Positions 42,131-55,882 of a stretch of DNA of 64,000 bases are shown here, in pieces. Position numbers and translations under genes: made by a program. The stretch lies in assembly GCA_025786725.1 (NCBI GenBank), contig JAHLTZ010000006.1, positions 124,001 to 188,000 on the forward strand. The letters run 5' to 3'. Origin of the DNA: Syncephalis fuscata (taxonomy: Eukaryota > Zoopagomycota > Zoopagomycetes > Zoopagales > Piptocephalidaceae). Below the pieces are notes generated by a model, which ran no database searches, was not told the origin of the DNA, and saw nothing but the letters and a program-made list of their open reading frames with translations. How positions within the stretch are numbered: position 1 is the stretch's first letter; each line of letters begins with the position of its first letter.

Positions 42131-42730
42131 CTAATCGATATATTTATAATTTAAAAGTGTAGCTAGCTTGTGCATAAAAGTATATACCTGTAAATAATAC
42201 AAGTTTAGCGTTATACTCGGTTTGAAAGGGTAAAAATATTTGAGATTGAGTTGTTGTTGATAAAAGCGGCGGCAAAAGGCATAGTGATGCATTGCAATGC
42301 TCCAATGGAACCAGTATATTTCATTTGCGACGCATGTCCAAATTCTAAACAAGGCAATAGAATTTTATTGCAACTCTACACATATGTACGGAATCGCTGA
42401 AATTGCTGTTTCATCTGGCCCAATCCGAGCATATTGGGTTAAGGCCTAATTACATATTACTATGGCGTTGCTACATCGGTATATGGATGGTTTAAGCTAT
42501 CACATGGATGTGTTTCATTGATTTACATCGCGTATCAGTGTTGTAATTGATAGAACACATTGTTTGGTTCTCCAAAATAGCAATGTATTTAAATAGTCCA
42601 CAAAAAACGCACACTTACCAGTGGCATCATCACATCAAACCCCACTTTCTGCTAAACACCCTCTATTCCTTACGCTGTTTCAAGAATCTTGCAGTATTCA
42701 TTTCACTTTGACTCAACAATCAACATCATC

Positions 42731-44665
42731 ATGAAGCTTTCTATTGCCGTTATCTGCACCCTCGTCGTGGCTTTTGTAGCCAGTACATCCACAGTGGATG
42801 CTAAGCCAGTTTTAGCTGGTCGCAGTAGGTTACAATTATAATAAATATGCAATGCTAATATGTAATAACAACATTGATAGGATGTAAGTGGTGTTGCACG
42901 TTGACTAAATATTTAACTAAATATTGTTTATATTTGCCAAACTAAAATTAGTCAGAGGTAAGCTATATTATATGTCAACTGACAATTTAACTAAATATAT
43001 GTTTCATTTAACACCTTAAATTAATAGCTTGTAAGTACACCATATAATGACTGGATATGCATTAATTATATACCGTTTATTGTGCATGTCAATAACTTAA
43101 CATTAATAGGCAGTAAGTGGCATTGTATATTGATTAGCTGTATACTAATTAAATGTACTGTACTATGTGTATCACAACTTAATACAATAGATCGTAAGTT
43201 TTGCTAAATATTAATTATTTATGTACTAATTGCATTATACGTATAATCTACATCAACCACTTGATACTAATAGTTGGTAAGTGATATTTTGCATTAATTA
43301 ATTGTAAATCAATTACTTACTATGTACCATCTGTATTGACAACTTGATATCAATAGCTTGTAAGTAATATTGTATCTTAATCGAGTTTGCACTAATTGCA
43401 TAATATTGCTGTGTGCATTGACAACTTAATATAATAGGTCGTAAGTAACATTATGTATTAATCGTTTATATACTAACTACATGCTACACATTATGTGAAT
43501 GAACAACTTAATATACTAGCTCGTAAGTAATATTGTATATTAATCAATTAAATAATAATTATATGCTATGCATTATGTAAATGAACAATTTGATACACTA
43601 GGCGGTAAGTAAGATTGTATATTAGTCGACTACACACTAATCATATGTTATTTGACACTTAAATTGATGCTTCAATATTAATAGCCGGTAAGTGGCGTTG
43701 TGCACTAGTTGAATATACACTAATTTCATGCTATCTATTGTTTATATCAACTTAATATTAATAGGAGGTAATTAATATACATATTAATTAGCTATATACT
43801 AACTATATCCTATCTATTGCGTGTATTATCAAATTAATGTCAATAGAAAGTAAGTGATATTTTATAACAATTAGCTAGTACTGACTACATTCTATGCGTT
43901 GTATTTATTAAATAACTTATAGGAATAAATAGTAGGTAATATTATATATCAATTGGCTATGTACTAATTGCATGTTATGCAACGTGTATCAATATTTTAA
44001 TATTATAGCTGGTAAGTGGCATTATATGTCAATGGATTATACACTAATTACATGCTATGTGCTATGTTCGATAACTTGACATCAACAGAGAGTAAGTCGT
44101 ATTATATATTGGCCATCTATATACTAATTACAATTTATTTTCATATCAATAATTTAACACTATTAGAATGTAAGTGCTATTATACAATAATTACTATTTA
44201 CTAATTGCATATTCATTGCATATCAATAACTTAATATTAATAGGCAGTAAGTACTAGCGCATATTAATTAACTATGTATTGCTTATACACTACATGTTTT
44301 TATATCAATAATTTAATGCTAATAGGATGTAAGCGATACTGTATGCTAATTAACTGTTTACTAATTATACGCTCATTGTGTATGTTGATACTGATACTAA
44401 TAGGCGGTAGGTGATAATTTATATTAATTATTTATGCGCTAATTACATATTATATACTTTGTGTATCAATAATTTAACACTACCAGATAGTGAGTAATAT
44501 TATATATTAGTTGATTATGCATTAATTTGTGCAATGTCTTGTGTTTGATAACTTGGCATTAATAGAGAGTAAGTAATACTGTAATTGGTGGTTTATATAC
44601 TAATTAATATTATTTATGTATCTATAGTATTTTCCTCAGCCGATATATTCAAAAAAAGGAATTAG
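42731..44665 (+). CDS. Secreted cysteine peptide gene built from 22 micro-exons
   Basis: Exon 1 (42731-42824) encodes a signal peptide, MKLSIAVICTLVVAFVAS, and a short pro-region. Then come 22 micro-exons starting at 42881, 42952, 43028, 43110, 43191, 43274, 43357, 43438, 43520, 43602, 43685, 43765, 43847, 43933, 44009, 44089, 44167, 44244, 44326, 44404, 44487 and 44566. All are 3 nt except 42952-42957 (6 nt). The last exon is 44628-44665. Each micro-exon sits between an AG and a GT, mostly GTAAGT. Exon 1 ends in phase 1, so every codon of the array straddles a splice junction. The fully spliced frame is 201 nt, 66 aa plus a stop, with no internal stop even though one exon reads TAG. The mature part has four cysteines spaced CX3C-X9-CXC, formed at junctions 3/4, 7/8, 17/18 and 19/20. 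That layout recalls the core of cysteine-stabilised alpha-beta peptides; function is not assigned. Exon 14 has an alternative reading (acceptor at 43922). Confidence 0.75.
42825..44627 (+). repeat. Tandem array of 23 related introns, about 80-bp period
   Basis: Introns run 42825-42880, 42884-42951, 42958-43027, 43031-43109 and so on to 44569-44627, most of them 73-83 nt. Nearly all begin GTAAGT (variants GTAGGT, GTAATT, GTGAGT). Most carry a central TA(C/T)ACTAATT-like motif and end in a shared segment close to CAATAACTTAATATTAATAG. They look like copies of one ancestral intron. The intervening trinucleotides are not conserved. The first (56 nt), the second and the last (59 nt) are the most divergent, as expected for array edges. 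Confidence 0.85.
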
Positions 44666-45306
44666 TAGTGTAATTGAACTACTAATTTAATACACTTCAG
44701 GCGTGCATTCGGTGCAAATCAGGAATTTGACAACTAAGCCGTTTATTTCTTTTACATTAAGATATTACCAATAAGCCTGGATTCAATTGTGTTTATTCAA
44801 CTATTTAGATTTTTAGTAATAAATACATGGTTTCATTCTGATTATATTTGATTAAGTTATTGTCACGATCTGAAAATAGAGCCAAAGGTGTGAAGCTCTT
44901 AAAGATTGCTCAGTATATATATATTTAAATATTTGTGTAGTACATACTCGATACAAATACACGCATAATTTGCCTAACTTCAATAAACACTATCCTCACT
45001 ATACTAGTAGTCTATTATTTAATTAGCTGTTTTATTCATGACAATCTAATGGTTGTAATAATAAGTTAATAAATGTGTAAAATAGCCGTTTTTTATCACC
45101 CATAGCTTATTATAATAACTATAGCTGATAATAGAACCTAAATGCTTCATACTATTTCATTATTAACATAGCGTTATTCGCTCATTTAACTGTTCACATG
45201 GTGTGGTTTTAGACATATTATTATAAAAACATGATCCCACATTGACATTGCAATGGCAGCTTACTTAAACAACAGAATTTATTGTTATTCATTGTACCTA
45301 TACTAA
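44666..45306. other. Intergenic region after the micro-exon gene
   Basis: AT-rich 3' flank. It contains a partial copy of the dispersed repeat seen at 41510-41560 (about 44735-44800). No gene is visible. Confidence 0.5.
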
Positions 45307-53016: not shown

Positions 53017-55882
53017 TCAAGGCATCGGATAAGCATTGGGTGGAGTGCGCACCCTTTGCTGGTTACCATCAGATTCGTTGAATTGCTGGCTAACGGCGCG
53101 TGCCAATCCAACAAACATCGGCCCACGACTTGATGCAGAAAACGATCTATTCATACGAGTACTCTCGTATCTGCCATCTTCCATACTTTCGCAACGGTTT
53201 TCAATGTCGTCGCTATCGTTGTTACTATAATTATAGTTATAATTATAATGGTTATAGTTGTTATAGTTGCTATAGTTGTTGTTATTGTCGTGGTTGTTAT
53301 TATAAATGTCGCTAAGTTGTCTTGGTATTAAATGTATATGATTTGTATTGGCTTCAAATACATTCCGTGTTGGCGAGTAATTGTCTTGTTCATCCATTAA
53401 CCTTGGCGGCTGTAAGGATGGAGTAGGATAACAATGTCTGATGGGGCCTGTAGACTTCGTTCGCCATTACTGAGCGTAGAGGATGTAGCAGTTGAACCAG
53501 CTGGCATGTCCAACATATTGCTAGGTGGTTCCAATTGAGGCCGATCATCAATGTACTCTTCTGCATAAACGTAATCGCTTAATACACTAATCTCAGTTAA
53601 TCGATTAGAATCAGGATATGAATCAGGCACATCGCTCATCTCCATGTTTGGTATAGAGTCGCGTAGTTTTGTCGGCGATAATAAAACACCACTAATGGAC
53701 CGTCCCCAAGAGTTGGTGCTTTTATAGTCAAGATCGCGTTGTATAGCCTTTGGACTTTGTGATTGTCGGCGATTGACCAGTTTAATAGCAGAGCGTCGAG
53801 CTGCACGTCGAGTGAATAGCATACGCCATTCTAGATAGAGACGGCGCTGCAAGCCAAATATTAAGAAAAAGACAATGCCTTGCATAGATACTAGAACTTC
53901 GGCAGCAATCATTATTTGGAAGCTAGGCAGTACCTCGTCCATAATAGATGCACAATAGCCTGTCCATTACCGGCCGCAATACACTTAAACCAAAGCGGTA
54001 TTAGTTCTTGGCGATGTGTATGTGATGTTCGGTTGATTTCAGTAAAATAAAACACCCAATAGAACACTAAAGAGCACATCAATGAGAGAGATAGTAGCAC
54101 GGCACGCCATTGAAGTCGAAGTGTTCCATAGCTGCAATTTTTTGTGCACGTCGGACAGCTCCGTTACTCGATGGATTGGATCCTGGCACTGTATGGCCAT
54201 GAGCACGACGACGTACACGGATAATATGAACAAATGTCCAGAGATGTAGAAATCCAGCGGGGAATACAATGGCACCTAACGGCCAAAAGAATACCCCAGC
54301 ATGATCTTTGCTAACTAGGCAAAGTTCGGCAAAGTCTATTGTACGACATTTAACGCTAATGGAACAGCTGTGCCAATGGCAGAATAAGACCAGCCAACGA
54401 TAACCACCCATTTGTAGTATCTACTCATCCACTGGTTGTTCCATACGGTATGCAAATGCAAATTTAAAATAATTATGGCCACCCAGAAGCAAGCGCTAAA
54501 CGAGCCAAATATTAGGATAGCGCCTTGTATACCACAAAGTGGGTTGTTGTTCATAGTGCTTTGGGTAATGGCATCTGCACATTGTATCGTTTTTGGATCA
54601 GTAATTACAAAAAAGGCTGACAAGGAAAATATTACGATACTAATGGTGGAGAAAAAGATAAGTGAAGTGGGATATTTACGTTTTCCAGGCAATACCAAAT
54701 AGGATGCAAATAGAAATAAAACTAACAGCGTAGAAATACCGCGTAGCAGAGATGCTACACGGAATCCAATTTCCAGTGTATTTGGTGGATAGAATGCATT
54801 GGTTACCGGGCAGGGAATACAGCAGCCATTGACACACTGCGGAGATTGACTTTTGCCCGGCCATAAAGGATCTTGAATAAGTGGAGATGGACAGACGAAT
54901 GTATCGACCATACGGCCAGTTAAATTCCAATTAGAGGCAGCGGCAGTGGCCATAACAACATTATCTTGGGAAGCTCTTGCTTTTAGTATAACTACATTAG
55001 ATAAATAAATAAAAAACATTAGCGTTAGTAAATTATTTCATTTTATATTTATATAACATGTCGCCTACCTAGTTCGGGGCATTGCTTATACTCGATGCCA
55101 TCGCGTGGCGCTACACAAGTCGCATCCTTGGGAACGATACAAGCTGTCGCTGTTCGCTTGGCCGCTGTAGAGAAAATAATTTATTTCGGCATTCAGTGTC
55201 GCTAGCCAAGTCGGTGCAAGTTTGCCGGCAGCGATATTCAGCTAAATGTCCTATAGTAGAAATGCAAAGTGTTAGTAATATAAAAATAGTAATAACAGCA
55301 TATTTACCAGTCGACGAATCAGAGCATCGGGGATAGGCCAGTTCGCATAAATATGCGCTGTATTTAGCAGCACAATCACTGCCAAGCGCTTGACGCTCTT
55401 TGGCGGATAGCCATTGTCTAGCAATCTGATTCTCTTTCTGTTTTAGTAGTAAAGAGGCTGTTGCTGTGTTGGACAGCACTGCTGGTGTGTTCAAATAGAA
55501 TGGCCTGTCCCCAATAATGGTGTGACAGAATCCGTTCTTAGGATAAAGCGTCGGTGTGATACACTCTATATAACAAATAAATAGGTGGTTTAGTATAAGC
55601 GAAGTTCAAACGATGTCTCGCCCGTGATGCTTTTGTGTTGCCCATAATAGACAGGCAAGTTGATCAGCACGCACATCAGTATAGCCACATTAAGAAGATA
55701 AATTTTAAAATAGAAGTTGATTGGGCTCAAGTCCCTAATTTCATTTCCGCTCATGTTCAAATATAATAATAATAATAATACTAAACCAACCACCAATCTA
55801 CCCACGATATGTGCTTACCTCCATTTACAAAAATAATAAATGTCAATAAAACAAGGAAAATAATGGTGTGTTGAAAGAACAT
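53017..55882 (-). CDS. Frizzled/Smoothened-like seven-transmembrane receptor (frameshifts)
   Basis: Four exons on the minus strand, 55882-55819 (signal peptide MFFQHTIIFLVLLTFIIFV), 55565-55308, 55250-55069 and 54991-53017, about 827 aa. The ectodomain is cysteine-rich in Frizzled-CRD style: ECITPTLYPKNGFC, DCAAKYSAYLCELAYPRCS, EYRCRQTCTDLASDTEC. Seven membrane segments follow (VASLLRGISTLLVLFLFASY, TSLIFFSTISIVIFSLSAFF, ILIFGSFSACFWVAIIIL, WVVIVGWSYSAIGTAVPL, FFWPLGAIVFPAGFLHLW, VLLSLSLMCSLVFYWVFYF and SMQGIVFFLIFGL). The long cytosolic tail is Ser-rich and ends in an Asn/Tyr repeat (NNNNYSNYNNYNHYNYNYN). Fungal Frizzled-like proteins are known without Wnt ligands, and the ligand here is unknown. 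One base is missing in exon 3 near 55180 and four in exon 4 (about 54345, 54130, 53945, 53425). With these restored, all phases close. Confidence 0.85.

Follow-up and report, generated by a model that had tools for sequence, protein, structure and literature searches.

The window analyzed here is a 64,000-nucleotide stretch of contig JAHLTZ010000006.1 of Syncephalis fuscata, a fungus placed in the Zoopagales. Its plus strand carries, at 42731–44665, a gene (L039) that consists of a 94-nt leader exon, 23 introns, 22 micro-exons and a short last exon. A possible promoter with the TATA-like sequence TATTTAAATAG was seen by eye at 42586–42596 on the same strand, and a TATAAATA/TTTAAATA box occurs at one position in the aligned 5′ flanks of two related genes, L051 and L053. 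Exon 1 (42731–42824) is predicted to encode a signal peptide and a short propeptide with a basic end (VDA/KPVLAGR, the next codon being R), with both the signal peptide and the cleavage sites judged by eye. This exon ends in phase 1 (CGC A/GTAGGT), so that the introns are phase 1 and codons are split after their first base. The minus strand of the window has, at 54336–55605, a membrane region of the Frizzled/Smoothened type (PF01534, E 6.3e-9) with a sub-threshold match to the Fz domain upstream of it. A thiolase encoded in the window has 86% identity to one from S. plumigaleata.

The array of L039 extends from 42825 to 44639 and has introns of 56–80 nt. Its micro-exons, all on the plus strand, are GAT (exon 2, 42881–42883), the 6-nt TCAGAG (exon 3, 42952–42957), CTT (exon 4, 43028–43030), GCA (exon 5, 43110–43112), ATC (exon 6, 43191–43193), TTG (exon 7, 43274–43276), CTT (exon 8, 43357–43359), GTC (exon 9, 43438–43440), CTC (exon 10, 43520–43522), GCG (exon 11, 43602–43604), CCG (exon 12, 43685–43687), GAG (exon 13, 43765–43767), AAA (exon 14, 43847–43849), the 9-nt GAATAAATA with the donor GTAGGT (exon 15, 43923–43931), CTG (exon 16, 44009–44011), AGA (exon 17, 44089–44091), AAT (exon 18, 44167–44169), GCA (exon 19, 44244–44246), GAT (exon 20, 44326–44328), GCG (exon 21, 44404–44406), ATA (exon 22, 44487–44489) and AGA (exon 23, 44566–44568). 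The coding part of the last exon (44640–44665) ends in a TAG stop, and a possible polyadenylation signal, AATAAA, was noted by eye at 44818–44823 (plus strand). The sequence AGTAATAAACAT is present in the tail of another family member, L050.

The gene is ambiguous at exon 3, exon 15 and the last acceptor. Exon 3 had a length of 0 nt when looser splice sites were used and of 2 nt in the parse preferred under a TAG/CAG acceptor rule, which gave the same 2-nt exon in each of L039–L041 and a stop at codon 33; the acceptor was reset by hand, giving 6 nt by analogy with the class of 6-nt exons that follow ATTAG. Exon 15 may alternatively be TAG (43933–43935, plus strand, 3 nt, donor GTAATA), which is also in frame and, because the array is in phase 1 and not phase 0, is no stop. 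The last exon may begin at 44628 on the plus strand, at an acceptor 12 nt upstream, again in the same frame. None of the alternatives at exon 15 or at the last exon shifts the frame, and the coding sequence is 189–207 nt long depending on their combination. The joined frame, MKLSIAVICTLVVAFVASTSTVDAKPVLAGRRFRACNLACPRAGE followed further on by EKCRCDK, ends in TAG and has four cysteines in the mature part, with the middle and end of the peptide varying with the reading of exon 15 and of the last acceptor. An earlier note had described an array of consecutive introns with 3-nt exons at 42731–44665, and this is confirmed, since 20 of the 22 internal exons are 3 nt, one is 6 nt and one is either 9 or 3 nt. 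The single 201-nt frame that it gave corresponds to its own combination of the alternatives.

The window gene is very probably one member of a large S. fuscata family whose products are small secreted peptides, most of them rich in cysteine. Among 320 candidates, the leader peptide was matched at all 150 loci that were scored (all E<1e-5), so that the family has no fewer than 150 leader matches. Thirty loci retrieved with the leader search comprised 23 arrays and 7 intronless genes, and a further 20, sampled at approximately regular intervals along the leader list with two substitutions, comprised 14 arrays and 6 intronless genes. By extrapolation, about 110 of the 150 leader loci would be array genes, a number that is rough because some loci may be allelic or on duplicated contigs and counted twice. 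An assembly artefact was ruled out by the presence of arrays on many contigs with diverged sequence. The public annotated proteins that matched the family were all from S. fuscata (two of two in one search and 14 of the 14 matches listed by a profile search). None of these 14 demonstrably contains spliced micro-exons; the two annotated proteins that were tested among them, P0123 and P0126, are intronless members. In P0002 and P0130 the leader appears by eye to continue into intron sequence (RKLYC...), and from these two records it is probable that array genes are misannotated in public records.

Chance is excluded genome-wide as the origin of the array pattern. The motif TAG-N3-GTAAGT occurs 4287 times in the 28.95-Mb genome vs. 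302 times for the reversed pattern, and triple consecutive units occur 2314 times vs. none in the control. The corresponding genome-wide counts for a spacing of four between TAG and GTAAGT are 431 vs. 531 in the control, and for a spacing of six, 494 vs. 297. In a set of 20 family loci that includes some other than arrays, 381 of the 415 GTAAGT hexamers lie exactly 3 nt after [CT]AG, as compared to 2 of 52 on the opposite strand of these loci and 1 of 53 for the remainder of the window.

Gene models were obtained with a dynamic-programming parser that uses splice-site scores and an exon-length penalty and is blind to codons and to multiples of three; the initial scores came from splice sites spaced 3 nt apart and were subsequently re-estimated. 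The first splice models were discarded as they fused weak introns into exons of 82–95 nt, as were looser splice sites that allowed exons of 0, 1, 2, and 4 nt. Requiring a TAG or CAG acceptor converted the 4-nt exons to 6 nt and removed several odd lengths. The loci being modelled had also served to select this rule, and 14 additional arrays were therefore scored under it without modification. In the resulting 40 models, 752 of the 806 internal exons are 3 nt, 42 are 6 nt, two are 9 nt and three are 15 nt, so that 799 are divisible by three and seven are not. The first intron interrupts a codon after its first base (phase 1) in all 40 models, which rules out that the triplets are themselves codons (phase 0). 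Donors are GTAAGT in 673 of 846 cases and acceptors TAG in 799 of 846, and introns shorter than 110 nt have a mean length of 76.9 nt (s.d. 4.6, n = 689, 26 models). The longest arrays have up to 50 introns, the number found in L051, which has 49 exons of exactly 3 nt and a predicted coding sequence of 243 nt. The 6-nt exons tend to follow the shorter acceptor TTAATATTAG and not TTAATATTAATAG (L042, L054, L055, L057, L061, and others). Five loci have one overlong array intron each, which exceeds the usual length by 0.4–0.9 kb (L054, 890 nt; L042, 495 nt; L038, 494 nt; C1_475, 502 nt; L032, 987 nt); the extra sequence in L042 and L054 is alike at its start by eye, which suggests an inserted element.

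As judged from these sequences, the triplets are coding when joined in order. Nineteen arrays, with 566 internal exons of which 540 are 3 nt, have no stop in 593 codons of the predicted frame, as compared to 68 in 593 and 4 in 592 for the other two registers. When exon order was shuffled within these arrays (1000 trials, composition kept) the mean was 26.2 stops and the minimum 14; since codons straddle the junctions, the shuffle probes the joining of neighboring exons in order. The count left out the partial models L026, L030, L032, L034, and L038, the degenerate C1_475 and L064, which has one 15-nt exon. With no exclusions, the 40 models have 2 stops in 871 codons vs. a shuffle mean of 38.8 and a minimum of 23. 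The 14 arrays that were outside the building of the rule have 1 stop in 160 codons vs. a shuffle mean of ~9, although 11 of these are 5′-terminal pieces only, some are visibly misparsed (exons of 15 and 17 nt) and one, L078, is a near copy of L061/L062. The three longer held-out arrays include two, L073 and L076, that are open to the stop in the last exon, and L072, which does not read through because of a 2-nt exon. Such a frame-breaking 2-nt exon occurs once each in L056 and L072; C1_475 has a 13-nt and a 2-nt exon, and the 2-nt exon of L034 adjoins the cut end of its locus.

The intronless paralogs serve as natural cDNAs for the arrays. Four of 20 family regions start with an intronless member. 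When the joined mature peptide of L051 (from its 49 three-base exons) was used as a query, it had a single match in the genome, the intronless L053 (C79:328078-328182; E 1.3e-8, 69% identity). The DNA alignment of the two genes is co-linear through the micro-exon junctions, and over TATAGYGAATGCATGGAAAARTGCAAAACYTATTGCG, a 37-nt stretch that spans ~12 micro-exons, there are three differences, all synonymous by eye. None of 200 shuffles with cysteines fixed reaches the score of the L051–L053 pair, which has a z of 11.6 and ranks first among 288 comparisons. The joined exons of L031 similarly align over ~39 nt with the intronless L052, L035, and L033 (z 4.9, 4.5, and 3.3, respectively). A pooled query of ten mature peptides, that of L031 among them, found no match in the genome and was insensitive, in that it missed even the known intronless relatives of L031. 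Together with the order-dependent stop-free frames and the genome-wide controls, the intronless paralogs support the proposal of the earlier note that the window holds a signal-peptide gene made of single-codon exons.

L051 and L053 have a homologous 5′ flank (~200 bp) and 3′ UTR, and the introns therefore seem to have been lost in place. A simple dispersed retrocopy is an unlikely origin for L053 given the ~200 bp of 5′ flank that it has in common with L051; loss in place is what recombination with a reverse-transcribed message would produce. Reverse-transcriptase-mediated loss of the introns around micro-exons has also been inferred in plants (PMC8831610). A tree of the leader and upstream sequence of 51 loci (40 arrays and 11 intronless genes) requires at least seven changes of state, and supported branches force four of these. 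Three intronless genes are nested in a supported clade with 28 arrays. Nested intronless copies would be expected if fully spliced array mRNAs exist. The intronless L075 lies near L035 on this tree, but beyond the signal peptide the two frames part; the reading of L075 is identical to the public protein P0134.

In most models, a leader with a cleavage-like site at alanine (VDA) is followed by a short segment ending in RR, as judged by eye. The motif Cx3C is present in 16 of 21 mature parts, some of which have two, and cysteine accounts for 88 of 719 mature residues (near-duplicate genes included). Four peptides, those of L044, L047, L050, and L064, are cysteine-free. The spacing Cx3C-Xn-Cx3C is the motif of alpha-hairpinin-like peptides. 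No Pfam family scored above the cut-off for the five proteins tried. Syncephalis species are described as mycoparasites (PMC10386755), and this lifestyle, the leader and the divergence of the mature parts would be consistent with peptides that help the fungus to attack its fungal host or to compete with it.

Comparisons of close paralogs indicate that most of the arrays vary by whole units. Seven of nine paralog pairs differ by complete intron+codon units; L041, for example, has one unit more than L040, which amounts to one extra arginine. Exons are more diverged than introns in eight of nine pairs (e.g., 0.452 vs. 0.101 in L057/L058 and 0.309 vs. 0.091 in L043/L048), the exception being L042/L043 (0.012 vs. 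0.030). In blocks with ≥95% identity in each of the two flanking introns, 21 of 393 exon positions differ vs. 228 of 19164 intron positions, and the exons are unchanged in 7 of 17 pairs; the changes in 3-nt exons number 9, 8, and 2 at codon positions 2, 1, and 3, respectively, in pairs that are not independent. Exons 30–31 of L056 and L057 differ at four of six nucleotides (GCA/ACC and TCA/ACG) between flanking introns that are 99–100% identical, a change that seems confined to the exons. The pairs L056/L057 and L043/L048 are near-identical at their ends and far less similar in their middles; we infer that they are mosaics of the kind expected from recombination between units. When two units are joined at random, a stop arises in 4.6% of cases, and single-exon skips produce a stop at the new junction in 41 of 760 cases and none in the other 719, so that most unit recombinants and exon skips would stay open at that point.

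The best explanation of these genes, with a probability of roughly 0.9, is in our view that their hypervariable mature peptides are encoded by single-codon exons and that these exons are genuinely spliced, one step at a time. It is highly improbable that the triplets never enter the mRNA, as they would if each array were a non-coding satellite of decoy sites within one long intron, with the spliceosome either joining exon 1 to the last exon or ratcheting through. A satellite would be compatible with the homology of the introns, which are tandem copies, with the resemblance of AG-NNN-GTAAGT to recursive splice sites and with the finding that none of the 14 public family proteins demonstrably holds the triplets; the avoidance of stops when triplets are joined in order in phase 1, but not when they are shuffled, the appearance of Cx3C in 16 of 21 models on joining and the matches of triplets to intronless paralogs in two gene groups speak against it. 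Another proposal that we regard as unlikely is that the arrays, although real, are for the most part silent and serve as an archive of donors or relics, with the intronless paralogs as the working genes. Intronless members are indeed common (7 of 30 and 6 of 20 loci), the two annotated proteins tested are of this type, and some arrays have frameshifts or insertions. However, L051 retains the 5′ flank of its intronless relative, strong splice signals have been kept in the arrays (673 of 846 donors being GTAAGT) along with open frames, changes in the 3-nt exons of close pairs fall 17 to 2 at codon positions 1 and 2 vs. position 3 (in pairs that are not independent), and the intronless copies nested among arrays would themselves need spliced array mRNA.

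It is quite improbable that the intronless state is ancestral and that an introner-like element was inserted at every codon, always in phase 1. Such an origin would fit the look of the array introns as one sequence family, with a mean identity of 68.8% between arrays vs. 54.2% for shuffled introns, but random insertion would not be expected to yield an exact 3-nt spacing in a single phase. In addition, there is no excess of array introns elsewhere in the window (28 matches vs. 25 for reversed introns in the ~62 kb examined), three intronless loci lie within the supported clade of 28 arrays, and the spacing is accounted for by tandem duplication of a unit of intron plus codon.

The reading that we prefer, stepwise splicing of single-codon exons, takes as its basis features that can be read from the genome itself: the exon grammar, the frame, the avoidance of stops, the unit indels and the intronless counterparts. 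Exon 1 would encode the conserved signal peptide of a presumably secreted product and a short propeptide, usually ending at a dibasic (Kex2-like) site, and the hypervariable mature peptide would derive nearly entirely from exons one codon in length, with a homologous ~77-nt intron after each. All of the introns are predicted to be in phase 1, with each codon divided N/NN over a junction. Splicing most likely proceeds stepwise and by intron definition, with which the short uniform introns and strong donors are consistent; two spliceosomes could hardly flank one 3-nt exon, and neighboring introns would therefore be removed sequentially. If the order were 5′ to 3′, the upstream exon would always be the long, growing one, and each AG-NNN-GTAAGT triplet would be a coding ratchet point that adds one codon. 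Because each unit comprises one codon and its intron, recombination could add, drop or swap single residues without a frameshift wherever introns are similar, and this is the probable cause of the unit indels. Arrays may also be replaced in place by copies of their spliced message. A more tentative proposal, which we regard as possible rather than probable, is that this codon-by-codon gene format, with a 5′-to-3′ ratchet through up to 50 introns together with recombination, is a diversification engine for peptides that are weapons of a mycoparasite. If this is true, DNA recombination and splicing noise would both yield usable peptide variants.

The number of likely 3-nt exons in this one genome is in the thousands, with dozens in succession, and their size is far below that thought to be recognizable; the limits of intron definition and of ordered splicing thus become directly testable. 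Standard annotation can easily overlook genes of this kind, and the secretomes of early-diverging fungi may consequently be undercounted. Among the matches listed in a search of the open-access literature there were no arrays of consecutive 3-nt exons and no micro-exon genes in Syncephalis, and the word "intron" is absent from the main text of PMC10386755 and PMC6784888.

Isolated micro-exons of 1–3 nt have been reported in several organisms, including 1-nt exons in plant APC11 and VPS55 (PMC8831610), a 3-nt exon in Drosophila homothorax (PMC7392893) and two 3-nt exons in the fungal gene lipS (PMC5639578). These number one or two per gene, in contrast to the dozens found consecutively here. 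Recursive splicing is similar in its stepwise removal of intron sequence and in the juxtaposition of acceptor and donor, but its ratchet site AG/GT has zero length, and each step in S. fuscata would add one codon. At the 20 S. fuscata loci none of the 415 GTAAGT hexamers is at distance 0 from the acceptor. Recursive splicing has been described for very long introns (PMC13149111). The conserved pre-pro leader and hypervariable, cysteine-rich mature part of the family resemble those of conotoxin precursors, which are not known to be split codon by codon.

Two further counterparts are groups of genes for variable parasite proteins. The micro-exon genes (MEGs) of schistosomes have exons of 6–81 bp, mostly 15 bp, and introns of 0.1–5 kbp (PMC10526429, the abstract of which gives 3–81 bp). 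Like the MEGs, the S. fuscata arrays are genes of a parasite that are hard to annotate, have a predicted secreted and variable product (signal peptide judged by eye) and a coding sequence made up mostly of consecutive symmetric micro-exons (799 of 806); unlike in the MEGs, 3-nt exons dominate (752 of 806), and the introns, which look like one sequence family, have a mean of ~77 nt, below the MEG range. The bicycle genes of aphids have a mean of ~17 exons, nearly all internal exons starting at codon position 2 (PMC9168663). They also resemble the arrays in being fast-evolving putative effector genes with many small internal exons of the same phase, codon position 2 being where the internal exons start in S. 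fuscata as well, given that the first intron is in phase 1 in each of the 40 models and that nearly all internal exons (799 of 806) preserve the frame, but they belong to an unrelated lineage. Bicycle exons are longer than those described here, and no bicycle gene is known to be made of single-codon exons. The S. fuscata family would thus be a third and extreme case, beside the MEGs and bicycle genes, of same-phase micro-exons being used for the variable secreted proteins of parasites, and one in which intronless paralogs allow the process to be traced.
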